Origin: a bacterium A37T11
GTDB lineage: Bacteria; Bacteroidota; Bacteroidia; Sphingobacteriales; Sphingobacteriaceae
Direction: 5' to 3'
DNA: 64,000 nucleotides
NCBI GenBank assembly: GCA_900109895.1
Contig: FOBR01000004.1
Location: 1-64,000 of the forward strand
Shown here: piece after piece, positions 1,827-30,446 of the stretch
How positions within the stretch are numbered: the stretch's first letter is position 1
Layout: every line of letters begins with the position of its first letter
Translations under genes and position numbers: made by a program
The notes under the pieces: generated by a model
The model's input: the letters and a program-made list of their open reading frames with translations, nothing else
What the model was told of the DNA's origin: nothing
Databases searched by the model: none

Positions 1827-1829
1827 AAT

Positions 1830-5369: not shown

Positions 5370-5418
5370 ATCTTTGTCTTGTTAGGTGTACATACTTTAT
5401 AAGTTATTCCTGACGTTT

Positions 5419-5451
5419 ACCGGGACTGCCGACGCCAATCTGTGTCCCGGT
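5419..5451 (-). terminator. Stem-loop between fecR and susC
   Basis: Perfect 8-bp arms ACCGGGAC / GTCCCGGT separated by 17 nt lie 13 bp after the fecR stop and about 50 bp before the susC start. There is no following T-run on the coding strand, so a simple intrinsic terminator is not clear. It could attenuate readthrough or stabilise the 5' end of the susCD message. Confidence 0.4.
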
Positions 5452-5463
5452 ATTTATTTTTTA

Positions 5464-12078: not shown

Positions 12079-12897
12079 TCAATGACCTTGAGCTTCGGCC
12101 GAAACTGTTGACCAGGCATCAAATTCGGCCAGGCGTTTTGCGTAGACTTGCTTAACAGCGGGATAGGCCAATTTGCCCAATAGAAAATGTAGCGGCGGAT
12201 TTGGGCTGTCAATCAGCAATAATACGGCTTTGGCTGTGGCTTCTGGTGTGCCCCAGCTATCTGGTGTGGCGGCTTCAAAAAATGCTTTCTTTACGGGTGA
12301 ATAGGCCTCGATCGGTTCTGTCTGCAAGGCGGAAGCGCCAGCCCAGTCGGTAGAGAAGCCGTTGGGTTCAATTAGGCTCACGTGGATGCCAAAACTTTTA
12401 ACCTCAGTGGCAAGTGTTTCGCTCAGGCCGTTCACGGCATATTTTGAAGCGTTATAAAGTCCCAGCACTGGCATGGTTATGAGGCCAAGAAAACTCGATA
12501 CCTGGATGATGTGCCCGGATCTTTGTGCCCTCATGATGGGGACAACTGCCTGGGTGACCCAAAGTACCCCAAAGAAGTTGGTCTCCATTTGGGCACGGGC
12601 TTGCTGTTCGGTGGTTTCTTCAACAGCGCCAAATAAGCCGAACCCGGCATTGTTAATTAGGGTATCAATACGGCCAAAATGTTGATTTACGGCATTAACG
12701 ACAGCAAAGCTGGCATCCCGGTCGGTTACATCCAGCTGGATGGGAAACACGGAATCGCCATACGATTGCACCAGATCATCTAAATCGGCCAGGTTCCTGG
12801 CGGTAGTAGCCACTTTATCGCCACGTTCTAGCAGGGCCTTTGCCCAAATCTTTCCGAAGCCCCGTGAGGCTCCAGTTATTAAAATGATTTTTGACAT
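12079..12897 (-). CDS. SDR-family oxidoreductase
   Basis: Short-chain dehydrogenase/reductase, 272 residues, cytoplasmic. It has the nucleotide-binding glycine motif TGASRGFG (about 7-14), the NNAG motif (LINNAGFG), the catalytic Ser in VSSFLG and the YNASK active-site Tyr-Lys. The C-terminal region resembles the group of broad SDRs annotated as oxidoreductases of unknown substrate. First gene after the 31-bp repeat and probably transcribed with the AraC gene. Confidence 0.88.
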   Translation of the reverse strand: MSKIILITGASRGFGKIWAKALLERGDKVATTARNLADLDDLVQSYGDSVFPIQLDVTDRDASFAVVNAVNQHFGRIDTLINNAGFGLFGAVEETTEQQARAQMETNFFGVLWVTQAVVPIMRAQRSGHIIQVSSFLGLITMPVLGLYNASKYAVNGLSETLATEVKSFGIHVSLIEPNGFSTDWAGASALQTEPIEAYSPVKKAFFEAATPDSWGTPEATAKAVLLLIDSPNPPLHFLLGKLAYPAVKQVYAKRLAEFDAWSTVSAEAQGH

Positions 12898-12991
12898 CTT
12901 TTTTTGTTATTTGTTGATAACAAAGGTACCGGCTCTTATCGAGGCACATTTATACAAAACACGGTAGGATTAGTACATTTTTGGGTTCGAA

Positions 12992-13022
12992 TGATGCAAA
13001 TTTTAGGAATTTATTTTCAAGT
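12992..13022. repeat. 31-bp direct repeat, copy 2 (at 3' end of the HTH gene)
   Basis: Identical to 7357-7387. On the minus strand it covers the last six codons and the stop of the HTH antitoxin-like gene plus 11 bp beyond. Confidence 0.8.
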
Positions 13023-13314
13023 CCACATTGAAATTCACTTTGGCGCCAAGTGCATCAAATACTTTAAGTATGGTTTCAAAGCGAGCATTGGTTACACTAT
13101 TCTCCAGTTTTGATATCTGGGCCTTCTGTACTCCTACTAATTCACCAAGCTGTTCCTGGGTTAAATGACGAGCTACCCTGGCTTCTTTTATAGCCTGCCC
13201 TAACAGTTCAATTTTCAACTCATTTTCAAAAGCATCTCGCCTGGCTGTCCCAACCTTACCGATATGTTTGTCGATCATAGTGTCCAATGATACTGTTTTT
13301 AATGACTTTTTCAT
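13003..13314 (-). CDS. HigA-like antitoxin / XRE-family HTH protein
   Basis: 103 residues with a central XRE helix-turn-helix: IKEARVARHLTQEQLGELVG then VQKAQISKLENSVTNARFET. The arrangement (about 45 N-terminal residues before the HTH, C-terminal ILKVFDALGAKVNFNV) is that of antitoxins paired with HigB/RelE toxins in Bacteroidota. The toxin gene that should precede it is reduced to a stump (13256-13405), so this is an orphan antitoxin. Its final codons and stop lie inside the 31-bp repeat. Confidence 0.85.
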   Translation of the reverse strand: MKKSLKTVSLDTMIDKHIGKVGTARRDAFENELKIELLGQAIKEARVARHLTQEQLGELVGVQKAQISKLENSVTNARFETILKVFDALGAKVNFNVDLKINS

Positions 13315-13405
13315 ATGTGTTATTTTTTTTCCTTATTTTATCATCAAGGGTTTCTAAAAATTCAACAGCTTCTGGTAGCAACTCAATGGTAAACTTTTCT
13401 TCCAT
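13256..13405 (-). pseudogene. N-terminal remnant of a RelE/HigB-type toxin
   Basis: A 49-codon frame whose first 26 residues (MEEKFTIELLPEAVEFLETL, DDKIRKK) look like the start of Bacteroidota RelE/HigB toxins, which normally run about 110 residues and end just before the antitoxin. After IRKK the similarity stops and the frame runs out of phase into the antitoxin start. A deletion of roughly 80 codons that ended at the antitoxin's leader would explain this. Confidence 0.55.
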
Positions 13406-15368: not shown

Positions 15369-17828
15369 ATGATAAGAAGAATTATACCTATTATTTTCGT
15401 GTCAATCATCTATTTAGCAGACACGCAGTATGCAATGGCTCAAAATCAACAATTGGCTGGCAAAGTCGTTTCATCGGCTGACCACAATCCGCTGGCAGGT
15501 GTTACGGTACGGCTGGAAGCCTTGCTCATAAAGCAGATCACGCATGCAAATGGTGGTTTCAAATTCGAAAACCTGGTTTCCGGAACCTATGTGATCCAGT
15601 TTTCATGTTTGGGTTTCGAATCTTCCAAAATTGAAGTGACGGTTCCATTAGAAAAAAACCAGTTGTTGTCGATCGAACTTAAACCGGCGGAAAACGTGTT
15701 GCAAACTGTTGAGGTCCTCGGAAGAAAGGAACAATCGTATAAAAATTCCTCGTCGTTTTCCGGAACGAAAGTTGAAACACCCATTAAATATGATCCGCAG
15801 GCCATCAGCTACGTGACCAAAGAAGTCATTGATGATCAGCAAGCCTTTAAGCCAGGTGATATATTAAAAAACATCAGCGGGGTCAATGCTTACTCCTATT
15901 ATAATAATGATATTTCAATCAGAGGTTTCAGGGCAGGGGGCGCACTGGTTAACGGCCTTCGCAGCCCCACAAACAGTTGGTCGCAGACCTTATTGGCCAA
16001 TGTAGAGCGCGTAGAAGTTGTAAAAGGGCCTGCCTCCATTTTTTACGGTGATAGTGATCCGGGTGGCACTGTTAATACAGTAACAAAAAAGCCTTTAGCA
16101 GATGACCGGAAATCGATTGACTTTTCTACGGGAAGTTTCAATACACTTAGGCTGAAAAGTGATTTTACAGGCCCCATGAATGATCAAAAATCACTGCTGT
16201 ACCGCTTAAATTTAGCCTATCAGAATGCTGGTTCGTTCAGAGTATTACAAGGTGGGGAAGACATGATGATAGCCCCATCCATTTCATTTCTGCCTACTGA
16301 CCGTACCCGTGTAAACTTTGATTTTGTGTACTCAAAGACTAATTCACGGCTGGACCGCGGCCAACCCATTTTCGGGGCTTCTGCCGGTACTAATCTCAAT
16401 TCAACCCCTATCTCTTTTGCCATTGGGAAGGCAAATGATTTTGAGAATGAATTAAACCTGAACGCAACCTTGTCATTGCAACATAAGTTTTCAGAACATA
16501 CCTCTTTCAATGCCTCCTATATGAAAGTAATGTATGACGAAAATATGCTGGAGCACCGCACCTCCAACCGGTATGCTGTAAACGAGGCAGGTGAGCAGAT
16601 ACCTACTTTGATGGAGATGCAAACTACGCGGCGCATACGGAAAAGTTATAATGATCACCTTTCCCTGTACCTGGTTCAAAATTTCCAGACCGGATCATTT
16701 ACGCACCGGATATTGGTAGGGTATGATTATATACAGAATCTTTCGCCTTTAGGAAACTCAACGTATAACGCACAGGGCTATCGGAATGCCGATAATACGG
16801 ATTTTATCAATCGTTACAACGCAAAGAAGCCTGGGGATTATTTAATTGTTGATGGCATGCCGGTACCAAACGTGCCGCATTTTGACCTCACTAACCCTGA
16901 TTATTCCATATCTGAACTATCTGGTTACATTAATGAATCAAATCCACAATCGCCGGCAAAAACCACCCAGCATGGATTTTTTGCTCAGGAACAGCTAACC
17001 TGGGGGCCCCTGAGAGCTGTCATTGCACTGCGTAAGGGTTTCTATACAAATTATCGGAATTACAAGGAATCTGATGAGAATTTGGTAAAGCAACAGAAAT
17101 TTATTCCACGGTTCGGTCTTATCTATACTCCGATAGAGCCTGTCAGCATTTATATGAACTATACACAAGGTTATCAGCCGCAAAGTGCCAGTATCATTGC
17201 CGACCCGGAACGCTATGGGGGGCCCTTTGAACCGATGGTCAGCAGGTCTTTTGAGAGCGGCGTTAAAACTGAGTTTTTCAAAAAACAACTGGCTATAAAC
17301 GTGGCGGTATATACCATTGAAAAAAATAATATTCTGATCGATGCCAATGACGAGGGCAACCCTGACCTATTACGTCAAATAGGTCAACAGCGCTCACGGG
17401 GCATTGAACTGGATGTTTACGGACAGGTACTGCCTAACCTTAGCCTCACGGCAAATGTAGCCATCAATGAGGCTAAGATTACCCAGAGTGATGACGAAAA
17501 AGAGATTAACAGAATTATGCCCAATTCGCCCAAAAATAAAGGAGGTATCTGGGCCAAATACACCTTTTTACTTCCAGCATTACGAGGTATAGGCATCGGA
17601 GCAGGAGTTAACTACATCAGCAAACGGAATACACAAAGTGATATCCTCACGCTTCCTTCGTATGTGGTTGCCGATGCGGCGCTTTATTACGCTTTTGATA
17701 AATTCAAGATCACGGCCAACTTAAATAATGTATTCAACAAAACCTATTGGGTGGGCGGTTACGAGTATTTTCGTTTATTTCCCGGTGCTCCGCGCAATTT
17801 CCTGGTTGGAGTTGGTTACACCTTCTAA
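15369..17828 (+). CDS. TonB-dependent siderophore receptor
   Basis: 819-residue outer-membrane receptor. A signal peptide (about 1-25, ending AMAQ) is followed by a carboxypeptidase-D-like domain (LAGKVVSSADHNPLAGVTVR), a plug (ISIRGFRAGGALVNGLRSPT; VERVEVVKGPASIFYGDSDP, GGTVNTVTKKP) and a beta-barrel ending in the typical aromatic strand FLVGVGYTF. The PGGxVN-type motif and the plug sequence match ferric-siderophore receptors (FoxA/FhuE group) rather than SusC. It heads an operon with a PepSY membrane protein 10 bp downstream, which supports ferric-siderophore uptake. Iron regulation is expected but no Fur box was recognised. Confidence 0.9.
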   Translation: MIRRIIPIIFVSIIYLADTQYAMAQNQQLAGKVVSSADHNPLAGVTVRLEALLIKQITHANGGFKFENLVSGTYVIQFSCLGFESSKIEVTVPLEKNQLLSIELKPAENVLQTVEVLGRKEQSYKNSSSFSGTKVETPIKYDPQAISYVTKEVIDDQQAFKPGDILKNISGVNAYSYYNNDISIRGFRAGGALVNGLRSPTNSWSQTLLANVERVEVVKGPASIFYGDSDPGGTVNTVTKKPLADDRKSIDFSTGSFNTLRLKSDFTGPMNDQKSLLYRLNLAYQNAGSFRVLQGGEDMMIAPSISFLPTDRTRVNFDFVYSKTNSRLDRGQPIFGASAGTNLNSTPISFAIGKANDFENELNLNATLSLQHKFSEHTSFNASYMKVMYDENMLEHRTSNRYAVNEAGEQIPTLMEMQTTRRIRKSYNDHLSLYLVQNFQTGSFTHRILVGYDYIQNLSPLGNSTYNAQGYRNADNTDFINRYNAKKPGDYLIVDGMPVPNVPHFDLTNPDYSISELSGYINESNPQSPAKTTQHGFFAQEQLTWGPLRAVIALRKGFYTNYRNYKESDENLVKQQKFIPRFGLIYTPIEPVSIYMNYTQGYQPQSASIIADPERYGGPFEPMVSRSFESGVKTEFFKKQLAINVAVYTIEKNNILIDANDEGNPDLLRQIGQQRSRGIELDVYGQVLPNLSLTANVAINEAKITQSDDEKEINRIMPNSPKNKGGIWAKYTFLLPALRGIGIGAGVNYISKRNTQSDILTLPSYVVADAALYYAFDKFKITANLNNVFNKTYWVGGYEYFRLFPGAPRNFLVGVGYTF

Positions 17829-17838
17829 TTGCTAAGAC

Positions 17839-19182
17839 ATGAGCCTACAGCCGACTGTTTCTGGAAAAAATAACAAAAAGCAATTCTATTGGCAACTCCA
17901 CCATTGGGTGGGGCTGTATACCGGTATCCTGATCGGGTTGCTAAGCCTTACCGGTGCCATGGCTGTGTTCATCCCGGAGATCGATGCTTTGGTCCAACGA
18001 CATCACTATAAAGCATCATCCACCCTTTTACCAGGAGAGCTTCCACGTATAAATAGAGCTGTTAACTCGTTACTAGTGAAATATCCAAAGCAGCGCGGGC
18101 TATCCATTATATTACCTGATAACCCGGAGAATGCTGTGATCATTGAGCTCAATACACCTCAAAATAAAGGAAAAACACAACGATATGAATTTTTCGTGGA
18201 TGCGGGTAGTGACCGGGTAGTTGCACATCGCCCGTGGCAAAGTTCTTTTGTAAATTACTTGCGGCAAATGCATGTAAGACTATTCGAAGGCAAGTGGGGT
18301 AGACAACTGGTAGGTTTTGGCGGGGTTGGCCTTACGCTGGTAAGCATTACCGGTTTGATCATCTACGGCAATTTTATGAAAAAACAACGCTGGCCCAACA
18401 TCCGGAAAGCGACAGACATCCGTATCAAAATGGCTGATTGGCATAAAATCTTTGGTATCGGCGCGCTTGGGTTTAATCTGGTCATTGCGCTCACCGGGGC
18501 ATGGCTCGGACTGCAACCATGGTTACAAAAGTGGTTAGATATTTATGCTCCCGGGAAAAACAAAACTCACATTATTATGGCACCAAAAAAAGACCGTGCC
18601 ATCAATATTGATTGGACTTCCGCTTTGCAGGCTGCCCGAAAAGCATTTCCTGAACTCAAGCCTCGTCACTTAATCCCGTCATCAAACGGGGCAGGAACTA
18701 TTACTTTTCGCGGCAACTTACCTGGAGTCATCTATGAACGCGATATCAACATGCTTGTATTATCAAAACTTGATTATAAGCCATTATATAAATATGATAT
18801 ACGTGAGCAACCCACAGCCGATAAATTCTATTATATTCAAGAAGCGCTGCATTTTGGGGACTATGGTGGTTTAATGGTAAAGGTGTTATATACAATACTG
18901 GGATTAACAAGTGCTTTTCTGTCCATCAGCGGTTTCGTGATTTTCCTTTTCCGCCGCAAAAAAAAGCAACGCTTGGTGGGAAATCCTTGGAAGGCCATAG
19001 TCTTTTATACCTTTTTATCTCTTCTTTTTTTGGTGACTATCGCCATAATAAGCATGAACACAAGTTATTCCTTAGCTTCAAAAATTTCCGGTGTCGTAAT
19101 TAATGGGGTACTTATTGGAGTGGGCTGCTACCTTTTAATTATGACTTTAAAAAAAGTAAGGGAAAAACGTAAACTTATTTAG
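17839..19182 (+). CDS. PepSY-associated transmembrane protein (iron-uptake reductase-like)
   Basis: 447 residues. Four main membrane helices: near 22-45 (GLYTGILIGLLSLTGAMAVF), near 155-178 (LVGFGGVGLTLVSITGLII), near 205-230 (IGALGFNLVIALTGAW) and near 350-375, plus two C-terminal ones. The HHWVGLYTG start and DWHKIFG repeats are typical of PepSY_TM proteins, whose paired histidines are thought to bind haem. Genes of this family sit beside siderophore receptors and are proposed to reduce ferric siderophores in the periplasm. Encoded 10 bp after the receptor. Confidence 0.85.
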   Translation: MSLQPTVSGKNNKKQFYWQLHHWVGLYTGILIGLLSLTGAMAVFIPEIDALVQRHHYKASSTLLPGELPRINRAVNSLLVKYPKQRGLSIILPDNPENAVIIELNTPQNKGKTQRYEFFVDAGSDRVVAHRPWQSSFVNYLRQMHVRLFEGKWGRQLVGFGGVGLTLVSITGLIIYGNFMKKQRWPNIRKATDIRIKMADWHKIFGIGALGFNLVIALTGAWLGLQPWLQKWLDIYAPGKNKTHIIMAPKKDRAINIDWTSALQAARKAFPELKPRHLIPSSNGAGTITFRGNLPGVIYERDINMLVLSKLDYKPLYKYDIREQPTADKFYYIQEALHFGDYGGLMVKVLYTILGLTSAFLSISGFVIFLFRRKKKQRLVGNPWKAIVFYTFLSLLFLVTIAIISMNTSYSLASKISGVVINGVLIGVGCYLLIMTLKKVREKRKLI

Positions 19183-19898: not shown

Positions 19899-20753
19899 CT
19901 AATGTTGATTATACGTTATCTCATCTCCGTCGGCAAAGAGGCTTATTTTTAGACCTCTAAATGTGATAAGTTCGCCACGTATTTTCAATTCTTTTGGTTG
20001 TGAGATTACCAACACTTGGCTTTTGCCGCTTACGGTCAGTTTATGCGGCTCTACGATGAGCGCTGTTCCTTCATCAATGCCAATACAAGTATAGGTAGGA
20101 TAGGCTGCGAGTGCTGAGATAAGGCGATTATATCGGCTTCTTTTTATAAAATGTTGATCGATGATGATGTGTTTAAGCAAGCCTAAACCTTTTTTGAACT
20201 GGATATTAGCATTCCATATCTTTTCAAATGTTTCCCGATAGCTGGTATCACCTTTAAGTTGTTTGCCAGTAATCATTTGCTCACTCATCACCGCCGCACC
20301 GGCACTGGTGCCCGCAATGGTGGAGCCACTGCTATAAGCAGTATGTATAGCTTTATAGATAGGTCCGGAGCCAACGATCTCCATAAAGCGGTTTTGGTCT
20401 CCGCCTGAAATGTAAATGAGTCCGGCATGTCGCAGAGAATCAATTTTTTGTAAGTTTGCAGTATCCTGCTTTAAAAAATTGAGCAAATATATGGGGTTTT
20501 TACAAATCTGCCTTAACTCACGTTGAATGTAATAGAAGGCACTGTCGGGCTCGGAACTGGCCATTGGTAGAACCACGATATAGCTGTCTTCGGCCAGTTT
20601 GGCCGTGCGCATCAATTGATGCATAAGTGCTGGTGGCCGTTCACCACCTCCAATGATAAAGAGATTTCCTTTTGGCGCGGGTTGCTGTGCGGCCAGACAA
20701 TTACAAAAAAATAGGTACAACAAGGTGCAGCCCCAGGTTGAAAAATTATTCAT
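19899..20753 (-). CDS. Cyanophycinase-family serine peptidase (S51), exported
   Basis: 284 residues. An N-terminal signal sequence ends near CLAAQQ. Then come peptidase S51 features: GNLFIIGGGERP, the ISGGDQNRF segment, the nucleophile elbow GTSAGAAVM (Ser150), IIIDQHFIKRSRYNRL and GIDEGTALIV. Cyanophycinases cleave multi-L-arginyl-poly-L-aspartate to beta-Asp-Arg dipeptides; other S51 members are dipeptidase E. Last gene of the locus, 6 bp after the isoaspartyl peptidase. No lipobox is evident, so it is probably periplasmic or secreted. Confidence 0.82.
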   Translation of the reverse strand: MNNFSTWGCTLLYLFFCNCLAAQQPAPKGNLFIIGGGERPPALMHQLMRTAKLAEDSYIVVLPMASSEPDSAFYYIQRELRQICKNPIYLLNFLKQDTANLQKIDSLRHAGLIYISGGDQNRFMEIVGSGPIYKAIHTAYSSGSTIAGTSAGAAVMSEQMITGKQLKGDTSYRETFEKIWNANIQFKKGLGLLKHIIIDQHFIKRSRYNRLISALAAYPTYTCIGIDEGTALIVEPHKLTVSGKSQVLVISQPKELKIRGELITFRGLKISLFADGDEITYNQH

Positions 20754-20759
20754 TTGATG

Positions 20760-21791
20760 TTATTTATAAATGTCTACTTGAATTTTTCCATCGGATGTCA
20801 CAGAACCTCGGTACATACCTTCGGTGTTGAAAGGCATGGCGATATCACCATCTTTATCAAGGGCAATAAGCCCTCCATCCCCTCCTGATTTGCCTACTTT
20901 ATCAAGGACTTCACGGGTAGCGTGGGTAATATCGAGCCTCTTATATTCAATCAGGGCGGCCACATCATGTGCCACAACGTGTCTGATAAAAAACTCTCCC
21001 CATCCGGTACAGGATATTCCCACCTGCCGATCGGCAAAGGTGCCTGCACCAATAATGGGTGAATCACCGACCCGGCCAAATCGTTTATCAGTCATGCCGC
21101 CGGTGGAAGTACCAGCAGCCAGATGCCCCTGCTTGTCAAGCGCCACGCATCCAACCGTTCCGAACTTGTTATCATGGAACTTAAAGGTTATAGCAGTAGT
21201 TTTTTGATCCTGTCCTTTTAAGAGCGCAAGAGAATCTTCTTTTAAGGCCTCTTGCAACGCGTCCCAACGCTCTTTTGTGTAGAAATAAGAAGGGTCAACC
21301 ATCTCCAAGCCTTTTGCTTTAGCAAATTTTTCTGCTCCGGTTCCGGTAAGCATAACATGGACTGATTTTTCCATCACTGCGCGGGCAGCAGTTATGGGGT
21401 TTTTGATAGTCGTAACTCCGGCTACGGCTCCGGCGGTACCATGATAACCATCCATAATGGACGCGTCGAGTTCGTTTTTACCTTCATGTGTAAAAACTGC
21501 ACCTTTCCCGGCGTTGAACAAAGGTGAGTTTTCAAGGACATGTATGGCTGCTTCTACAGCATTCAAACTACTTTCACCTTTCTGAATTACCTTGTAACCT
21601 GCATCGAGTGCCTCACTTAACGCAGCGCGATAGGCCACTTCTTTTTCAGGGGTCATATTGCCTTTGACAATGGTTCCCGCCCCTCCATGAATAACCAGTA
21701 CATATTTTTCTTTTTTGACCACCGGGCTGCAGGCTGCCATGAGCATTAACAAAAGCCATAGGGTGTAACAGAAATTGTTTTTAAACAGCAT
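20760..21791 (-). CDS. Isoaspartyl peptidase / plant-type L-asparaginase (Ntn hydrolase), lipoprotein
   Basis: 343 residues. A lipoprotein signal peptide ends at LMAAC (Cys21). The body closely follows E. coli IaaA: IHGGAGT, PLFNAGKGAVF, ELDASIMDG, autocleavage site KFGTVGCVALD with nucleophile Thr212, then STGGMT, GRVGDSPIIGAG and PFNTEGMYRGS. The enzyme self-cleaves into two subunits and hydrolyses beta-aspartyl dipeptides, also asparagine. Lying between two cyanophycinase-family genes it would finish the breakdown of beta-Asp-Arg to aspartate and arginine. Located in the envelope rather than the cytoplasm, unlike IaaA. Confidence 0.9.
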   Translation of the reverse strand: MLFKNNFCYTLWLLLMLMAACSPVVKKEKYVLVIHGGAGTIVKGNMTPEKEVAYRAALSEALDAGYKVIQKGESSLNAVEAAIHVLENSPLFNAGKGAVFTHEGKNELDASIMDGYHGTAGAVAGVTTIKNPITAARAVMEKSVHVMLTGTGAEKFAKAKGLEMVDPSYFYTKERWDALQEALKEDSLALLKGQDQKTTAITFKFHDNKFGTVGCVALDKQGHLAAGTSTGGMTDKRFGRVGDSPIIGAGTFADRQVGISCTGWGEFFIRHVVAHDVAALIEYKRLDITHATREVLDKVGKSGGDGGLIALDKDGDIAMPFNTEGMYRGSVTSDGKIQVDIYK

Positions 21792-21804
21792 GATGTTCGT
21801 TATC

Positions 21805-22866
21805 TTATTTAAGTATTTGTTTTAACTCTCCGTTTTTTACCCACCACCAGTACCAGCGTCCTCCCTTCTGTGCAGGATCCATATAGTCGGTCACCTGGAA
21901 ATGCCCTGCGCCGGTAGGACTCCCGTTTATCTCATAAACAGCCACGGCATGATTGTTTTGGTTCCATTCCAACTTTTCGCCGGCTTTTCTTATTTCCGGT
22001 TTTTTGTCAATGCTGCTTTGCAGAAAATACGCCTTGCTTTCACCGAAGACCATGGCAACCCCCTGCTCGTCAATACAAACAGCGGTTCGCTCGTCTGATG
22101 CTATGCCCCGGGCATCTTGCTGTAGGTCTGTTAATACTTTGCTTATAAATACTACGTGTCTGCCCTGTCGGTTCCGCGTGAGGTAATGCTGGTCTGTAAT
22201 AACATGGTTTAAGAATGGGGCTTTCAGGAAATCATCGTGGTCGATGTCAATCAGGGAGCTTGTTGGGTCGTTCAAGGCCTCTTCAGAGGTTACACTGCCT
22301 CTTGCCCCGGTGAAATAGCTGCTTCCAAGAATGGCACAACCCGCACTGGTACCTCCAACAGGAACTTTCTTATCTTTTAGTAGATAATTAATGGCATCTG
22401 CTGTTTTGGTACCCTTCCAATAGTTAACATAGTCTGATTGGTCGCCTCCGGCAATAAAAAGAAGTTCGGCATGGCGGATAATGGTAGCGACCTCCTCGTT
22501 ATTTGCAAGGCTTCGTGAGTCTATTTTAAGGGTTTCAACTGAATTAAGGCTGCCTAGTTTTTTTACATAAGGGTTGTAGGCATCGGTTCCTGAAACACGG
22601 ATAATGACGGCGTCACCACCTCCAGCTCGTTCGATCATCCACTGAAAGGCCTCGTCGACATCAGTACCGCCGCCCATAAGCACCAGGCCGCTTTTGGTGG
22701 ACGACTTGACGTCGGCGGTATCACCCACTACGCCAATGGAACCTGTCCTTGGCTTCGAACCTCCTTTTTCAGGCTCCGGACCGCTGGATACAGGCCCACC
22801 TGAACTTTTGCAACTACTGGTCAATAGGGCCAGCAACACTAAGCAATTCAAATAACCTGTATGCAT
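21805..22866 (-). CDS. Cyanophycinase-family serine peptidase (S51), lipoprotein
   Basis: 353 residues. The lipobox LLTSSC puts lipidated Cys at 19, followed by a Gly/Ser/Pro/Glu-rich linker (to about 57). S51 core: LVLMGGGTDV, DAVIIRVSG, LLFIAGGDQSDY, nucleophile elbow GGTSAGCAIL (Ser174), HVITDQHYLTRNRQGR and AVCIDEQGVAMVFG. It is larger than and divergent from the S51 enzyme at 19899. It starts 6 bp after susD, so it is expressed with susCD. As an outer-membrane lipoprotein it is the best candidate for the surface enzyme that first attacks the polymer. Confidence 0.85.
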   Translation of the reverse strand: MHTGYLNCLVLLALLTSSCKSSGGPVSSGPEPEKGGSKPRTGSIGVVGDTADVKSSTKSGLVLMGGGTDVDEAFQWMIERAGGGDAVIIRVSGTDAYNPYVKKLGSLNSVETLKIDSRSLANNEEVATIIRHAELLFIAGGDQSDYVNYWKGTKTADAINYLLKDKKVPVGGTSAGCAILGSSYFTGARGSVTSEEALNDPTSSLIDIDHDDFLKAPFLNHVITDQHYLTRNRQGRHVVFISKVLTDLQQDARGIASDERTAVCIDEQGVAMVFGESKAYFLQSSIDKKPEIRKAGEKLEWNQNNHAVAVYEINGSPTGAGHFQVTDYMDPAQKGGRWYWWWVKNGELKQILK

Positions 22867-22872
22867 GACTTA

Positions 22873-24273
22873 TTAATAATTGGGGTTTTGTTTCATATTG
22901 TGATTAACAGAGATCTCCTGGGCCGGAATGGGCAGAGCATATTGAGCATCTGCAGGCGTGAGCGTGAGCGCACCTGAAGTATTGGATGCATCTGCCTCAG
23001 AACGCTTCACTGGAAGATTTCTTCTTCTTAGGTCGAAAAACCGTTGTCCCTCAAAGGCAAGTTCTTTGTAACGTTCTGTATAGATTGCCTGTATTAGCGC
23101 GTCCTTGCTGCTGATCGTTTCGTCGGTATATCCATCAATCCGGGCATGTCTTAGCGTATTTAGATCATCCACAGACTGTACTATTGCGGCACTGCTTTCT
23201 GCCAGTGCCTCTGCCCGGATCAAAAACATTTCGCCGGTGCGGAATAGCTTAATATCAGTAAGACCAGGCGCGGATAGATCTCCTCCCCGGTATTTTTTCA
23301 CCAGATATGGCGCTTTTCCATTTCCTCGATCCGTTTCGTGGGAAATATAAGAGGTATAGCGAATATCATGTACAACATCAAAGGTATTGATTAGTTTATA
23401 GGAAGGTGCGTAAAGAACAATACCTCCGGCTTCCCTGAAATAAAAGCCTCCGATTCGCGTGTCACCCGATACGCGCTTTAGCTTCCAGACCACCTCAGAA
23501 TCGGATTCGTCTGTCCAGATATCCTGAAATTCGTCGGCTGAGGCCAATGGTACTGCTTCGATCACTTCCGTGGAATAGTTGATGGCGTCTGCCCAATTCT
23601 TTTCATAAAGTGCCAGCCGGGCTTGTATGGCACTGATCCCATTTTTTGTGATCCGGCTGTTGTCATTAAAGCTGGTAGGAACCAGGTTTTTCGCTTCTGA
23701 CAGGTCTGCTTTGATGTTAGTAATGACCTCTTCAAAGGGCTCGCGGGCAGGATTACTGATAACCGATTCTTTCATATAAGGTATGCCCATCGCTCCATTT
23801 TCATAAGCCGATGCATACGCCCTTAATATTTCAAAATGCGAATAAGCCCGTAAGGCCAGCAGCTCTCCTTTATATTGATTTTTGATTGCTGCGTCGTTGT
23901 CATTAGGCGCCGGCACACCGTCAAGGGCACCTAATACACGGTTGGCCCTGTCTATCGCACTATAGTATTCATCAAAGGCACTGGTTACTGAACCGCTGCT
24001 GGCGGTATATAACCATCGGTAAGCATCTGAGTTGCTTACCGAGTTTTCTTCGGGCATATTTGCCTCATCGGATACAATGCTGTTTACACCAATAAGCGTA
24101 TAGTCAAGTACTGCATAAGCGCCCAGAAGCCCCATATTCAAATCTTTGACATTCCGAAATGCTTTACTGGGATCGATACTGTCACTAGGAGCTATGTCCA
24201 ATGCGTTGCAGGAGAACATAAAGGCAATAAAAACTGCCATTAAAATGCGGGTTATAGTGCGATGGATAGTCAT
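22873..24273 (-). CDS. SusD/RagB-family outer-membrane lipoprotein
   Basis: 466 residues from the ATG at 24273, chosen because it gives a clean lipoprotein signal ending FMFSC; an upstream ATG at 24297 overlaps susC. SusD features: ALDIAPSDS at the N-terminus, a helix-rich TPR-like body (LALRAYSHFEILRAYA), ERYKELAFEGQRFFDLRRRN and the ending ALPIPAQEISVN. It would bind the oligomer at the surface over the SusC channel. Two S51 peptidases and an isoaspartyl peptidase downstream suggest a peptide-like ligand, not a glycan. Confidence 0.9.
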   Translation of the reverse strand: MTIHRTITRILMAVFIAFMFSCNALDIAPSDSIDPSKAFRNVKDLNMGLLGAYAVLDYTLIGVNSIVSDEANMPEENSVSNSDAYRWLYTASSGSVTSAFDEYYSAIDRANRVLGALDGVPAPNDNDAAIKNQYKGELLALRAYSHFEILRAYASAYENGAMGIPYMKESVISNPAREPFEEVITNIKADLSEAKNLVPTSFNDNSRITKNGISAIQARLALYEKNWADAINYSTEVIEAVPLASADEFQDIWTDESDSEVVWKLKRVSGDTRIGGFYFREAGGIVLYAPSYKLINTFDVVHDIRYTSYISHETDRGNGKAPYLVKKYRGGDLSAPGLTDIKLFRTGEMFLIRAEALAESSAAIVQSVDDLNTLRHARIDGYTDETISSKDALIQAIYTERYKELAFEGQRFFDLRRRNLPVKRSEADASNTSGALTLTPADAQYALPIPAQEISVNHNMKQNPNY

Positions 24274-24283
24274 GATCGTAAAT

Positions 24284-27200
24284 TTAAAAATTAACATTTA
24301 GTCCGGCAGTATAGGTTCTGGCAGCAGGGTATTGAAACCGGCCGTATACATCGTTATTCTCCGGATCGAGGCCCCGCCATCCAGTCCATGTGATTAAATT
24401 TTGCGCCTGCATGAATATTTTAACACTTTTCACAATTTTTAAATGTTGTATGATTGACGGTGATAACTGATATGCCAGATTTAAATTACGGAGGCGCAGA
24501 TAAGAAGCATCCTGAATATCTTTTGAGGTGAACTGCCTGGGTATATCGATCCGCTGTAAGATAGCGTGGTCACCCGGTTTTTTCCACCGGTCTTCAAGCA
24601 TCCGGATGGATTGGTTGCTGGTCATATATCGTTGGTTTTCATTGTAGAGGTCTTCGTTGTTCCAGCGCTTCACGTTTGACACAAATGAGAAAAATGCATT
24701 TAAACTGATGCCTTTGTAAGAGAGCCCGGTATTAAATCCGCCGGTGAAAGAGGGATACAGGCTTCCTGACTTCGTAACACTTTGTTCGTTTTCATTATAT
24801 GTATTTGTTATGCTGCCGTCTTTGTTATAATATTGTGATTCGCCGTTATCAGGATTGACGCCAGCCCATTGCGGCGCGTAATAGGTTCCGTAAGGCAGTC
24901 CGATTTTCAGTATACGGGTATCACCGTCCTGCAGGTCGTCAAGACCACTGCCCAGCGCCAGGATTTTGTTTTTATTGTAAGCAAAATTAAATCCAAGAGA
25001 CCAGGTAAAGTCGCTGCTTTTGATCACGTCTCCCTGCACGTCTATCTCTACACCCCTGTTGCGCATCTTGCCGGTACTCAACGGCAAACTACTGAAACCG
25101 GAGGTGGATGACAGTGGCTGGTCAACGAACATGTTGCGCGTAATACGATTATAGTAATCGGCAGAGATACGCACACGTTCACTTTTAAGCAGCCCCAAAT
25201 CAAAGCCAGCATTAAATTCATCCACATATTCCCAGTCGTATTCAGTATTACCGGGTTCAGCCGGACGGATTGCTGCCTCACCACCGTAACTAGTGTTTAC
25301 GCTATAGGTGGCCAGATAGGCAAAATCACTACCGAATGGACTGGCTGTTGTACCATAGCTGCTGCGTAAGTTGAGTGTACTGAGCCATTCTTTGTCTTTC
25401 AGAAACGTTTCAGCTTTTGCATTCCAATTGACACCTACCGAGTAGAAGCCATGCCACCTATTTTTTTGTGCTACTTTGGTAGAACCATCATACCGATAGC
25501 TGGCAGTTAATGTATAACGTTTATCGTATGTATACCGCCCTGCCCCGATGTATGAAACCAGGGCACTTTTGGTGCGGCTGCCTCCAAGCTCTGGTAAAAA
25601 GGTGCTGCTTGGTGGCGAAATACCGGCTGGTGTTTCGGGCAAACGTTCATCAATGCCGTAACCTGTATAATCAAAGGATCGGTAATTTTCATACACATAC
25701 TCATAAAAAGCAGATAATTCCACATCGTTAACTTCATTGAAGGTATTGGCATAGGTAAGACCCGTAGTGGAAATAATACTGTAGTTGCGCCGGCTGCCTT
25801 CGCCAAATTTTCCCTGCCCTCCTACGGTGTTCGAATTGTTGCGCGAACCGTAATAGGAATCAGGGTTAATATATACCTGATCACTGGAGTTACGGTAGTC
25901 AATGCCGGCCCTTGTTGAAACACTAAGACTGGGCAGTAGCTGGTATTTTAATTGTACGCCGATCACAGATTTAAACTGGTCAGTTTTGTCGCTTGAGTTC
26001 AGCAAACGATCCAGACCCTGGGAACCTTCCCGGAGATCCAGGATGTCATCGCCTGCCTTTCCAGGATCGATCAGTATTCCTTCCGGACTGTAAGGGTATT
26101 CGTAAGGCAACGCATAATAAACAGAAGCCATGGAAGCGCCGACCTTGGTACTCGCCTCCCCTTCAGTAAAGCTTGATCGGGAATAACCTAGCGTTAGGTT
26201 GACATTGCCCGAGAATTTATTGGACCGGAAATCAACGTTACTTCTTAATGCATAGCGCTTCATACCGGTCCGTTTAGCGATGCCATCCTGGTCGTAATAG
26301 TTCAATGAATTATAAAATTGTACGTTCTCGCCTCCTCCGCTCACGCTGACCTGTTGCTCCTGGAATTTGCTTTGCTGAAAAAACATGTCCCGCCAGTCCG
26401 TGTTGATGCCACGCAAGCTGTCCAAAATTTGGTTGGCCCGCTGTTGTTCTTGTGGGGTCATTTCGGCATAATCAGGATTTTTAGGAGAATAGGTCCAGCC
26501 TGGACCTATATTTTTGCCAATTTCTTCGCCAACTTCTTCTTCAAAACGCAGGCGCTGTTCGGTATTCATCATCACAAATTTGGTGCGCGTAAGATCAGAA
26601 AAACCATATTGCGATTGATAATCCACTTTGAGCCTGCCGGCAATTCCCTTTTTGGAGGTGATGAGAACCACTCCGTTTGAACCACGAGATCCATAAAGCG
26701 CTTTGGCTGAAGCATCTTTCAAAACGGTGACTTCCTGTACATCACCTGGATTCAATGTTTGGAAGTAGTTCGACTCAATGGGTACTCCATCCAGCACATA
26801 CAAAGGTGCTCTGCTGCCATTGATGCTTCCGATTCCTCTGATTACCACACTGGCACTGTTGCCTGGCTGACCGGAGCTGGACGTGACGTTCATGCCCGGC
26901 ACTCGGCCCTGCAATATCTGATCAATGGAACCCATGGGCACCTGGTTTACCTTATCGGCAGATACCACCGAGGCTGCACTGCTTGACTGATCACGCCGAT
27001 AGCTGGTATACCCAGTTACAGTGACTTCATCCAACAGTTTATTTTCGCGAACGAGGGTGATGTTCAAACTGGTCTGCCCCTGAAGGGTAACCTGCTTCGT
27101 TATAAATCCTACGGCAGAGTACTGTATGATGTTGCCAGGTTCAACGTCATCCAGTACATATGCCCCACTATTATTGCTATGGGTACTTATCCGGGTTCCC

Positions 27201-27631
27201 ACGATACTGACATTGATGCCCGCTAGCGGCTTGCCGTCTTCATCATTGATGCGACCAGAGAGGTTGGTTTGCTGCTTTTCTTTTTCTACGGTTAAAATGG
27301 GATAGATTATAACCAACCCGTCTTCATTGACACGGTAATTAAGCGAAGCACCTTTCAACAACCTGGGCAATACCTGGTCAAGCGTGGCGTCCTTCACCTC
27401 AAGTGATAGACGCTGCTCATCGGACAAAATTTTATTGCTGTACACAAAACGAAAGTCAGTCTGTTTTTCAACATCCTTAAAGATTTCCTTTAAAGATCGC
27501 TCACGGGCATGGAGGGTAATCTTATACTGCGCAAACCCTGTCGCATAAACATTCACGCATAATGGCAGGAGAAAAAATAGGGTCAGTTTCATATACAAAA
27601 GCTGCGTTGGGGAAAATCGATTTTTTGTCAT
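24284..27631 (-). CDS. SusC/RagA-family TonB-dependent transporter with STN domain
   Basis: 1115 residues. Signal peptide (about 1-34), STN domain (about 35-115: YKITLHARERSLKEIFKDV), carboxypeptidase-D-like domain (LSGRINDEDGKPLAGINVSI), plug (VPMGSIDQILQGRVPGMNV; GSINGSRAPLYVLDGVPIE; DASAKALYGSRGSNGVVLIT) and barrel ending TYTAGLNVNF. The STN domain implies signalling to FecR. As the importer of the cyanophycinase-type locus it would carry oligo- or dipeptides such as beta-Asp-Arg. The downstream susD start lies 10 bp after its stop. Confidence 0.92.
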   Translation of the reverse strand: MTKNRFSPTQLLYMKLTLFFLLPLCVNVYATGFAQYKITLHARERSLKEIFKDVEKQTDFRFVYSNKILSDEQRLSLEVKDATLDQVLPRLLKGASLNYRVNEDGLVIIYPILTVEKEKQQTNLSGRINDEDGKPLAGINVSIVGTRISTHSNNSGAYVLDDVEPGNIIQYSAVGFITKQVTLQGQTSLNITLVRENKLLDEVTVTGYTSYRRDQSSSAASVVSADKVNQVPMGSIDQILQGRVPGMNVTSSSGQPGNSASVVIRGIGSINGSRAPLYVLDGVPIESNYFQTLNPGDVQEVTVLKDASAKALYGSRGSNGVVLITSKKGIAGRLKVDYQSQYGFSDLTRTKFVMMNTEQRLRFEEEVGEEIGKNIGPGWTYSPKNPDYAEMTPQEQQRANQILDSLRGINTDWRDMFFQQSKFQEQQVSVSGGGENVQFYNSLNYYDQDGIAKRTGMKRYALRSNVDFRSNKFSGNVNLTLGYSRSSFTEGEASTKVGASMASVYYALPYEYPYSPEGILIDPGKAGDDILDLREGSQGLDRLLNSSDKTDQFKSVIGVQLKYQLLPSLSVSTRAGIDYRNSSDQVYINPDSYYGSRNNSNTVGGQGKFGEGSRRNYSIISTTGLTYANTFNEVNDVELSAFYEYVYENYRSFDYTGYGIDERLPETPAGISPPSSTFLPELGGSRTKSALVSYIGAGRYTYDKRYTLTASYRYDGSTKVAQKNRWHGFYSVGVNWNAKAETFLKDKEWLSTLNLRSSYGTTASPFGSDFAYLATYSVNTSYGGEAAIRPAEPGNTEYDWEYVDEFNAGFDLGLLKSERVRISADYYNRITRNMFVDQPLSSTSGFSSLPLSTGKMRNRGVEIDVQGDVIKSSDFTWSLGFNFAYNKNKILALGSGLDDLQDGDTRILKIGLPYGTYYAPQWAGVNPDNGESQYYNKDGSITNTYNENEQSVTKSGSLYPSFTGGFNTGLSYKGISLNAFFSFVSNVKRWNNEDLYNENQRYMTSNQSIRMLEDRWKKPGDHAILQRIDIPRQFTSKDIQDASYLRLRNLNLAYQLSPSIIQHLKIVKSVKIFMQAQNLITWTGWRGLDPENNDVYGRFQYPAARTYTAGLNVNF

Positions 27632-27691
27632 AGTTTTGATTGTTTTTTAATAATGTCCCGATCATGGATGAATTGTTAATTAACTTATGTG

Positions 27692-27719
27692 ATCAGGGAG
27701 CGTTGCAGCGCTTCCTGAT
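27692..27719 (-). terminator. Stem-loop at the fecR/susC junction
   Basis: Arms of 11 bp with one mismatch (ATCAGGGAGCG / CGCTTCCTGAT) around a 6-nt loop, touching the fecR stop codon. As in the first locus, a hairpin separates fecR from susC. No T-run follows, so attenuation or message stabilisation is as likely as termination. Confidence 0.45.
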
Positions 27720-28795
27720 TATTTACTAATATATATTTTGTTGTCTGCTACCCTGAAATGAAATGGATATGACATTTGAAGGGTTTTTAAAATGCTAAGT
27801 ATATTTTCGTGCTGAAATACGCCCGTATATCGGTAACTTTTTACTTCCTTGTCATCAAAAAGTATGGTTATGCCATACCACTTCTGCAAGATGGCCGCGA
27901 TCTGTTCTAAGTTCTGATTGGATATATCTATTTTTTTTCGGATCCAGCTGATTTCTGAATTGCCTTTTTCCAATTTTTGGATGCCCACTTCATCCGGGGG
28001 CCTGTTGCCAATTGAAGGTTTTGGTAGTCCGTTATCACGAAAACGTTGATAGACAAATTTTTGATGAGGAAGAATGGTTACCGGATCCTCGGGATGTCTA
28101 TTACTATTTACAACAACCTTACCACTGATTAAGATAGTCTCCGAAATCCCTTTTTCTAAGTCTTCACGAACACTAAATGAGGTACTCAATACAGTAATCC
28201 TGGTAAGATTGGTTTGCACGACAAAAGGTAGGTTTTTATTTGGGCTTACATTAAAATATGCTTGTCCTTTAAGGAATACGGTGCGGTTGGTGCTGCTAAA
28301 ATGATCATGAAGGGTTAGGCTGCTATGTTTCTGCAAGGTAACAAGCGATCCGTCATCCAAAACCAGCGTTTGCTTACCCTCGCCGGTATGGTAATAATTT
28401 ATTTCACTGTTTTTAGAGGACGAGGCAGCAGAAAACCAACGCCGTTGATATGCCAGCAGGAATATACTAGCAGCTGCCAGCGGCACTGAAATCTTTAGGA
28501 AGGCTGGCAGCCATCTACGAGGTTTTGGCTGTTTGCGCGATGAAACTTGGACCCTGAAAGCGTCGGAATTGTCCAGCCCTTTTTTTAACTGCCAGAGTTG
28601 TTCTTTTATATTACCCTGGTTAACGCTAAGAAGGGCAAACAATCGGGTGGCTTCCTCGATATCTATTTGTTTTTGGGGATGCGAAGAGATCCAATTTTCC
28701 CAAAAAATGACGGAATGCGAATTTGTACCTAAGCAATATTCTTGAAAACTTTGATCACACACAAAATCTTCTGCCTGGAATTCATTAAACCTCAT
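27719..28795 (-). CDS. FecR-family anti-sigma factor
   Basis: 358 residues. Cytoplasmic N-terminal part with several helices (to about 95), one membrane helix (about 100-115, FLKISVPLAAASIFLLAY), then a periplasmic FecR domain with KQTLVLDDGSLVTLQKHSSL and KGQAYFNVSPNKNLPFVVQ, and a C-terminal FecR/STN-contact region ending KIYISK. It would transmit substrate occupancy of the SusC STN domain to the sigma factor encoded 127 bp upstream. It is free of the repeat insertions seen in the other fecR. Confidence 0.88.
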   Translation of the reverse strand: MRFNEFQAEDFVCDQSFQEYCLGTNSHSVIFWENWISSHPQKQIDIEEATRLFALLSVNQGNIKEQLWQLKKGLDNSDAFRVQVSSRKQPKPRRWLPAFLKISVPLAAASIFLLAYQRRWFSAASSSKNSEINYYHTGEGKQTLVLDDGSLVTLQKHSSLTLHDHFSSTNRTVFLKGQAYFNVSPNKNLPFVVQTNLTRITVLSTSFSVREDLEKGISETILISGKVVVNSNRHPEDPVTILPHQKFVYQRFRDNGLPKPSIGNRPPDEVGIQKLEKGNSEISWIRKKIDISNQNLEQIAAILQKWYGITILFDDKEVKSYRYTGVFQHENILSILKTLQMSYPFHFRVADNKIYISK

Positions 28796-28922
28796 AGTTT
28801 ACCCATTTTAATAATAGACGGGGTAATTATGTTTTTTTCCTAAGAAAAATTAAATTATTTTAATGAAAATTGAATAATTTTTAATAGTTTATAGTAAAAT
28901 TAAAAATAAACGGCTTTTCTAT

Positions 28923-29468
28923 TCATTTTAAAAGTTTTCTAAGGGTTTTTATAGCATCGTATATGGTATTATAGGCCGTTTTAACGCTCAACGTATTTTG
29001 TTGGGCAATTTGTTCATAAGTTAACCCTTCAAAGAATTTGAGTTTGATGTGTTCCTTTTGTTTGGGTGTTAGTTGATCAATTGCTTGGTGCAATTTTTTC
29101 TTAAGTAAATCAGATTGCTGACTGTTGATAAGTAATTCTTCGTATGAAAGTTCGTTTTGCGGACCTGAGTCTGCTAGATATAATAAAGCTACATCCATTT
29201 TTTGCTGGTAAGCAAGTTCGTCCTGAATAAGCCTTCTAAACGCGGTTAAAAGGTATGATTTTACATCGTGGACTTCACTTAGGGTGTTTTGCTTTTCCCA
29301 TAATTTCAAAAATAACTGGTTAATGCAGTCTTTGACGAGTTCTTCTTCAGCTCTCTGGAGCAATCCATAACGAACTAAATGGAAATACATGCTGTTATAA
29401 AGCGAGAATAACGCTTCTTTATTACCTTTTCTTAGTTCATCCCACTGTTCTTTTAATGCAGCATTCAT
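28923..29468 (-). CDS. ECF RNA polymerase sigma factor
   Basis: 181 residues, sigma-70 family ECF type. Region 2 lies around 25-90 (FSLYNSMYFHLVRYGLL, DCINQLFLKLWEKQN, YLLTAFRRLIQDEL), region 4 around 120-178 (AIDQLTPKQKEHIKLKFFEG, LTYEQIAQQNTLSVKTAYNT). It should drive susCD and the peptidase genes when FecR releases it. It begins only 24 bp after the M28 peptidase stop, so it may also be read from that gene's promoter. The 28796-28922 gap before fecR is AT-rich without features. Confidence 0.88.
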   Translation of the reverse strand: MNAALKEQWDELRKGNKEALFSLYNSMYFHLVRYGLLQRAEEELVKDCINQLFLKLWEKQNTLSEVHDVKSYLLTAFRRLIQDELAYQQKMDVALLYLADSGPQNELSYEELLINSQQSDLLKKKLHQAIDQLTPKQKEHIKLKFFEGLTYEQIAQQNTLSVKTAYNTIYDAIKTLRKLLK

Positions 29469-29492
29469 CCGTCAGATCCTCATTCATTTCTG

Positions 29493-30446
29493 TTAAGGAT
29501 TCTTTTTTAACTTAGGAACTCTTGAAGGCGTATCCTTTCCGCTAACGATGCTCTGGGCGCCAATAGCGATGGCTTGTATAGAAGCCACGATGTTGCCAAC
29601 GTTCAGGCTGCTTACCTCGTCTTTAACTGAATGGTAAAGGCTGTCCGTATCAATCTGATCCGTTGAGAACGAATGGGCGGGTACGCCTTGTGCTGCTAGT
29701 GTGGCATTATCACTGCGATAAAATAGTTTTTGCGCCGGATAGGGGTCTGGATGGAAGGTAAAATCAGTTCCTTCCACATTCTTTTGCATGATCGTGGCCA
29801 GATCTGATCGGTCAAAACCCGTTACAAAGACTGAATTGGGTCCAAATTTAGAATCTTTGCCAATCATTTCGATATTGATCATGGCAACCACCTGGTCCGG
29901 GTTGATCTGCGAAGTGAAATAGCTGGATCCTACAAGTCCTAATTCTTCCGCTGTAAAGGTTACAAACAGCAGGCTGCGTGCATTGTCGTGCCGCCGGGCA
30001 TAATAACGGGCCAGGCTGATCACGGCACTTACGCCGGAGGCATCATCGTCGGCTCCATTGGCAATGGAATCCTGCCCTACGGGTTTAATAATGCCGATAT
30101 GATCATAATGGGCCGAAAATATGACATATTCATCGGGTTTGCTGATGCCAGGAAGCACACCTACGACATTAAATAAGGGCTTATCAGGCTTTATTTTGGA
30201 AGTAAAGGTTTGCCGGTATTCTCCTCCTGCAAATGGCTTCAATCCTATTTGTTTAAACTCAGTACTGATAAAATCAGCTGCTTTCTCGATATCGGGCGAG
30301 TAAGCGGCCCGGCCATGCATTTCATCCGCTGTCAGCGTATTTAATATACGGGCAACTTCTTGCTGGCTGACGATGCCGGACGATTTGGTTTGTGCAGAGG
30401 CCAGGGTTGTACTGGTAATTAACAGGAATATTAGCTTATTTTTCAT
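29493..30446 (-). CDS. M28-family zinc peptidase, exported
   Basis: 317 residues with a signal peptide (ending LASAQ). The M28 aminopeptidase metal ligands are visible: SAHYDH (first His), GADDDASG (bridging Asp), TAEELGLVGS (catalytic Glu and ligand Glu) and a final His in PAHSFSTDQ. Such enzymes release N-terminal residues in the periplasm. It is the most upstream gene of the same-strand block that holds the sigma-FecR-SusCD-S51 genes, and it may complete peptide breakdown for that locus. Divergent from the fatty acid hydroxylase gene. Confidence 0.85.
   Translation of the reverse strand: MKNKLIFLLITSTTLASAQTKSSGIVSQQEVARILNTLTADEMHGRAAYSPDIEKAADFISTEFKQIGLKPFAGGEYRQTFTSKIKPDKPLFNVVGVLPGISKPDEYVIFSAHYDHIGIIKPVGQDSIANGADDDASGVSAVISLARYYARRHDNARSLLFVTFTAEELGLVGSSYFTSQINPDQVVAMINIEMIGKDSKFGPNSVFVTGFDRSDLATIMQKNVEGTDFTFHPDPYPAQKLFYRSDNATLAAQGVPAHSFSTDQIDTDSLYHSVKDEVSSLNVGNIVASIQAIAIGAQSIVSGKDTPSRVPKLKKNP

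Follow-up and report, generated by a model that had tools for sequence, protein, structure and literature searches.

The locus described here lies at positions 19899 to 30446 of a 64,000-nucleotide stretch of DNA (the window) from contig FOBR01000004.1 of the Sphingobacteriaceae bacterium A37T11, and is a putative locus for the import and digestion of cyanophycin, the nitrogen-rich storage polymer of cyanobacteria. It holds eight open reading frames, all on the minus strand, and assignment of the window proteins to families with Pfam and NCBIfam agrees with an earlier note on the same DNA in coordinates, strand and gene names:

19899 to 20753, minus strand: S51a, predicted exported cyanophycinase of family S51 (TIGR02069, 157.6 bits), with a predicted periplasmic location in most orthologs
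20760 to 21791, minus strand: IaaA, Ntn-type isoaspartyl peptidase / plant-type asparaginase with an export signal (Asparaginase_2, E = 2.2e-114)
21805 to 22866, minus strand: S51b, second and divergent cyanophycinase-like S51 protein with the lipoprotein signal LTSSC (Pfam S51, 39.9 bits)
22873 to 24297, minus strand: SusD-like surface lipoprotein (SusD_RagB and SusD-like_3)
24284 to 27631, minus strand: SusC/RagA TonB-dependent transporter with an N-terminal STN signalling domain (TIGR04056, 706 bits)
27719 to 28795, minus strand: FecR-type anti-sigma factor (FecR and FecR_C)
28923 to 29468, minus strand: extracytoplasmic function (ECF) sigma factor (Sigma70_r4_2, sigma70-ECF TIGR02937)
29493 to 30446, minus strand: M28 peptidase, adjacent to but outside the conserved unit (Peptidase_M28, E = 4.3e-38)

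The tight spacing from susC on that the earlier note had described is borne out: with a 14-bp overlap of susC and susD followed by intervals of 6, 13 and 6 bp, susC-susD-S51b-iaaA-S51a has the look of a single operon. Further upstream the gaps are 87 bp (FecR-SusC), 127 bp (sigma-FecR) and 24 bp (M28-sigma). Promoter and terminator signals in the locus did not rise above those of shuffled sequence. SusC (TIGR04056) is directly followed by the SusD lipoprotein, as in importers of polysaccharide utilization loci (PULs); a domain scan found no glycoside hydrolases among the eight genes, which include peptidases instead, so the locus lacks the carbohydrate-active enzymes of a classical PUL. In the host genome (5.09 Mb, 97.5% complete) there are only two S51 genes, both in this locus, and two Asparaginase_2 genes, of which the better-scoring one is found here. 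Since these three genes stand together and their order is kept in dozens of genomes, the grouping is not due to chance.

A contig scan with a single protein gave six loci, and a wider genome search was used instead. Matches to S51a in same-family genomes fall into two well separated classes, one at E < 1e-40, taken as orthologs, and one at E ~1e-20; orthologs occur in 78 of the 300 genomes sampled from the order. We compared 60 ortholog loci from the same family, which are the strongest matches and not a random draw; their share with SusCD should not be read as an unbiased rate. The earlier note had suggested searching genomes for sigma-FecR-SusCD beside S51 and an isoaspartyl peptidase, and the arrangement proved to be conserved: SusC is present in 46 of the 60 loci (50-66% identical to the window protein), SusD in 46 (50-64%), IaaA in 48 (59-68%) and S51b in 28 (51-60%), with the gene order of the window kept in nearly all. 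Because unrelated SusC proteins in the same stretches are only 24-33% identical to that of the window, the 46 SusC/SusD pairs are orthologous importers. Outside the family, the identical operon is present in L110 and L117, two genomes from another family of the class. There is thus a genuine and ancient core unit, SusC-SusD-S51b-IaaA-S51a. The M28 peptidase, which the earlier note had counted into the system, was rejected as a component because none of the 60 loci has an M28 match in the 9 kb around S51a.

Some variation around S51a was also noticed. In L050 and L051 the gene is inverted with respect to its neighbours in the locus, which shows that it can be rearranged on its own. Downstream of S51a and in the same orientation, L082 (9856-11016) and seven further loci have a PKD/DUF5050 lipoprotein, and L116 has a PKD protein of similar type placed between SusD and S51a; these are possibly an additional surface binding protein. 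S51a has a different context in one other family (L111-L115), where its orthologs stand near M28 peptidases and without IaaA, followed by a penicillin-amidase family protein and a dienelactone-hydrolase-like protein, as read from the domains of L113.

The assignment of the two S51 proteins was examined by score, residues and fold. S51a lies above the cut-off of the NCBIfam cyanophycinase equivalog model TIGR02069 (157.6 vs 126.6 bits). In an S51 alignment numbered after its reference, Synechocystis CphB (3en0), both S51a and S51b keep nine of nine positions, Q101, S132, D172, Q173, H174, R178, R180, R183 and E201, which in the published CphB structure are the catalytic Ser-His-Glu together with the pocket residues Q101, D172, Q173, R178, R180 and R183. 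Each position is kept in all but one or two of the 67 S51a and 31 S51b rows (window included), and S51a orthologs from other families keep them as well. The signature discriminates, since the PepE-like exopeptidase 6nqc in the alignment has neither the GGDQ glutamine nor the DQH-x3-R-x-R-x2-R motif. The solved chain nearest to S51a is 7uqv, followed by 3en0. The AlphaFold (AF2) model of S51b, with a mean predicted local distance difference test score (pLDDT) of 87, has 7uqw, 7uqv and 3en0 as its nearest folds, far ahead of the peptidase E structures; the top match, 7uqw, is a structure of CphB with a cyanophycin dimer in it. The kept residues and the fold lead us to infer that both S51 proteins are cyanophycinases that would cut cyanophycin. 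The S51b-like proteins of the second locus type described below are more distant and do not always keep these positions, with S or T at 173 and P at 178. One of them (L016:12461-13759) has a type IX secretion tail and, at position 173, S instead of Q, and would for these reasons be a secreted relative with an altered pocket.

A lipobox pattern is present in 27 of 30 S51b proteins and in 34 of 46 SusD proteins, which served as positive control, against 13 of 48 IaaA and 11 of 66 S51a proteins; the pattern is crude, in that it misses some true sites and that several of the IaaA and S51a matches are spurious. Most S51a and IaaA proteins have ordinary signal peptides ending in A-Q, although the window IaaA itself, unlike most of its orthologs, carries the lipobox LMAAC. 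The signal sequences suggest that S51b is on the outer membrane and that S51a and IaaA are mostly periplasmic.

IaaA gives a full-length match to Asparaginase_2 (382 bits), with 2zak as its best solved match (E = 2.3e-86). Its residue T212, in the motif GTVG, lines up with the residue that opens the beta subunit in solved structures, and this motif, which holds the autoprocessing Thr of the beta-subunit start, is present in 48 of 48 IaaA orthologs. Family membership is consistent with the splitting of beta-Asp-Arg dipeptides, with the limit on substrate that IaaA-type enzymes are promiscuous for beta-aspartyl dipeptides. Evidence of another kind comes from loci in which S51a sits with a different SusCD lineage, ~30% identical to that of the window. 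In L015, L016 and L116, SusC-SusD, PKD-domain lipoproteins and S51a are found together, with a YfcC-like permease additionally in L015 and L016. IadA (TIGR01975, 459-494 bits, cut-off 331) occurs only in L016 and L017, the dipeptidase slot of L116 is occupied by an M20 peptidase, L118 and L119 have IaaA plus YfcC, and L125 and L126 have M20-S51a-YfcC with no SusCD adjacent. The slot beside the cyanophycinase is filled by three unrelated families, IaaA, IadA and M20, two of which are known isoaspartyl dipeptidases. Because unrelated dipeptidases replace IaaA in this position, a beta-aspartyl dipeptide would be the shared product, and the replacement is the strongest evidence we found to suggest it. 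The YfcC neighbour, a putative basic amino acid antiporter according to an NCBIfam model under whose cut-off both matches fall, would fit an arginine product; in part of the same-family loci the gene that follows S51a is instead an SDF dicarboxylate/aspartate symporter.

The M20 peptidases beside the cyanophycinase lie at L116:7397-8716 (minus strand), L125:3414-4583 (minus strand) and L126:7793-8884 (plus strand), two of them with YfcC and one in a SusCD locus, and the solved proteins closest to that of L126 bear the annotation peptidase T / tripeptidase. A passage of PMC10206079 says that the beta-Asp-Arg dipeptidase remains undiscovered in Bacteroidota, and these M20 peptidases are candidates for it. 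In the Robertkochia locus L018, an aspartate/glutamate racemase (12667-13356) comes shortly after IaaA-S51a-YfcC.

SusC, with its STN domain, stands next to FecR and the ECF sigma factor, as in FecI/FecR/STN signalling. When the STN domain of SusC orthologs is judged by length (>1080 aa), all 34 SusC proteins of STN length in 45 loci have a FecR directly upstream and all 11 shorter ones have none, with no mixed cases. Given this strict pairing, the sensing module comes and goes as one block, in keeping with what is known of FecI/FecR trans-envelope signalling. ECF sigma orthologs (52-60% identical) are present in a subset of the loci, and the FecR sequence is variable.

The best solved match of SusC is RagA (6sli), both for the window protein (362 bits, next-best solved protein 311 bits) and for the SusC family profile (498 bits, next-best 445 bits), whereas the other SusC of the window (1830-5369) matches 8ypu best. 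RagAB of Porphyromonas gingivalis is a SusCD-type importer of polypeptides and takes up ordinary peptides; although the similarity is distant, RagA as the nearest solved relative mildly favours a peptide-like cargo. The same kinship would suit the scavenging of isoaspartyl peptides from aged or damaged proteins by a RagAB-like importer, with the S51 and Ntn enzymes removing Asp or isoAsp, and the promiscuity of IaaA enzymes and the M28 gene next door point in that direction too. We consider this explanation unlikely, however: two S51 proteins with a conserved cyanophycinase Arg/Gln/Asp pocket would be superfluous for general isoAsp repair, and the M28 link is not conserved, so that the conserved unit is left without a general protease.

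There is also a small chance that the polymer is a relative of cyanophycin, for example one rich in beta-Asp-Lys, or another beta-aspartyl polymer. S51b is divergent, the closest solved relative of S51a is a 'pseudo-CphB' from Pseudobacteroides, and lysine is also inserted by some synthetases according to a passage of PMC10206079. Against this, all nine CphB positions tested are kept, and the YfcC model fits Arg, but Lys too.

The source of the polymer was addressed by a search for the cyanophycin synthetase gene cphA1, which gave no match over the cut-off in the host genome, and internal cyanophycin storage in the host was rejected on this ground. Among the 46 genomes with a SusCD locus, 19 are without a synthetase, including 16 of 16 from genus g17, and 27 have a full synthetase elsewhere in the genome, so the locus is independent of own synthesis. 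The S51 class at E ~1e-20, which lies within ~1 kb of cphA1 in G041, G399, G022 and G118, is the cytoplasmic-type partner of the synthetase, a gene distinct from those of the locus. Since the host has no recognizable synthetase, the system would scavenge polymer from its surroundings, such as that left by dead cyanobacteria or stored by other bacteria. Recycling of a polymer produced by the host or by its relatives, for which the 27 genomes with a synthetase could speak, is very improbable, given that the host and 19 of the 46 locus genomes have none, that the export signals of the enzymes point outward and that the cphA1-linked S51 is a different gene; in this host it is contradicted, unless the assembly, at 97.5% completeness, lacks a synthetase gene that is really there. 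An MccG-like role of the S51 proteins in resistance to isoaspartyl-nucleotide antibiotics is hardly credible, because, although some S51 peptidases confer such resistance, the toxic isoaspartyl-nucleotide is released inside the cell according to the MccG paper (PMC9239234), whereas S51a and S51b are exported and clustered with SusCD and IaaA.

We hold it about 75% probable that the locus is a cyanophycin utilization locus, importing and digesting this polymer. In the scheme that we propose, cyanophycin or its fragments would be bound at the surface by SusD and imported with SusC as the TonB-driven channel. S51b, a lipoprotein probably of the outer membrane, and S51a in the periplasm would convert the poly-Asp backbone to beta-Asp-Arg, which periplasmic IaaA would split into Asp and Arg for uptake by amino-acid permeases; the genes of these lie elsewhere in the host genome, but beside S51a in some relatives (SDF or YfcC type). 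Substrate at SusC would signal through STN and FecR to the ECF sigma factor and turn the operon on; here the STN-FecR pairing itself is observed.

Several points weigh against cyanophycin utilization. Known cyanophycinases release dipeptides, which are small enough to need no SusCD channel, so that the cargo of SusCD may be a chain, an oligomer or a dipeptide. S51b scores under the TIGR02069 cut-off (68.1 vs 126.6 bits) and is therefore termed cyanophycinase-like and not an equivalog, and 7uqv, the best solved match of S51a, bears the title 'pseudo-CphB'. The S51b lipoprotein is missing from 18 of the 46 SusCD loci, so that surface cutting is not essential in all of them, and several S51a orthologs are without SusCD. 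The AF2 model of SusD (pLDDT 85) has small SusD proteins and RagB as its nearest folds, a match that does not discriminate between ligands, and the fold was dropped as a ligand indicator. The earlier note's picture of a PUL-type importer with cyanophycinases and an isoaspartyl peptidase for cyanophycin gains support from residues, fold, synteny, the missing synthetase and the replacement of IaaA, but its M28 member and its claim to novelty are not supported, nor is surface cleavage as an obligatory step. More tentatively, SusCD may import intact or long cyanophycin, which is isopeptide-branched, for digestion by two cyanophycinases on either side of the outer membrane, an arrangement that may have arisen in at least two SusCD lineages, each recruiting whichever of three unrelated isoaspartyl-type dipeptidases was available, including an M20 enzyme of a kind so far not known for this reaction; we regard this fuller account as possible but doubtful.

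The idea of a cyanophycin-importing system is not new, contrary to the earlier note, which knew of no SusCD system described for cyanophycin, since a Bacteroidetes locus of 2017 and a TonB receptor proposal of 2012 precede it. The 2017 abstract by Ben Hania et al. reportedly mentions a transport complex homologous to polysaccharide utilization loci. Passages of PMC10206079 and PMC6243061 refer to their 'cyanophycin utilization locus' (doi 10.1111/1462-2920.13639) in Bacteroidetes strain L21-Spi-D4 (Salinivirga cyanobacteriivorans), a scavenger of cyanobacteria. As far as those passages describe it, that locus likewise brings together cyanophycinase, isoaspartyl dipeptidase and transporter genes, and here too no cphA1 exceeds the cut-off; it uses the amidohydrolase IadA, in contrast to the Ntn hydrolase IaaA of the window locus, which also carries an ECF sigma factor and FecR. 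The Bacteroidales loci L015-L017, with SusCD ~30% identical to that of the window, resemble the L21-Spi-D4 type. Sharon & Schmeing (2023) report, in a passage of PMC10206079, that 30 of 32 genomes with IaaA and cyanophycinase and no cphA1 cluster the genes, often with amino acid transporters, and read the clusters as scavenging. The window locus has the same IaaA-cyanophycinase pairing in a host without synthetase, and adds SusC/SusD and two differently exported cyanophycinases, which the relevant passages of PMC10206079 do not describe. Tang et al. (2012) found a TonB-dependent receptor beside a cyanophycinase in Citromicrobium and proposed cyanophycin as the receptor substrate (PMC3400609); Citromicrobium belongs to a different phylum, and the passage concerns the receptor and the cyanophycinase gene only, with no SusD or isoaspartyl peptidase. 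New in the present analysis are the wide spread of the arrangement within one family, a conserved pair of cyanophycinases that differ in their export, the exchange of dipeptidases between two lineages of SusCD and the strict pairing of STN with FecR.

Two other groups of genes in the window were noted. A second SusD-SusC pair lies at 447-6615, with a 383-aa open reading frame directly upstream that is a FecR by position only. On the plus strand at 15369-19182, a TonB-dependent receptor followed by a PepSY_TM protein is convergent with the operon; this pair is probably for metal or siderophore uptake and separate from the cyanophycin locus.

If the assignment is right, the Bacteroidota plan for importing sugars would be extended to a nitrogen polymer. 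The arrangement is spread through a large Bacteroidota family and is not the speciality of one microbial-mat scavenger, and because it is so widespread, this predicted and little-tested route of cyanophycin turnover may be checked in cultured strains.

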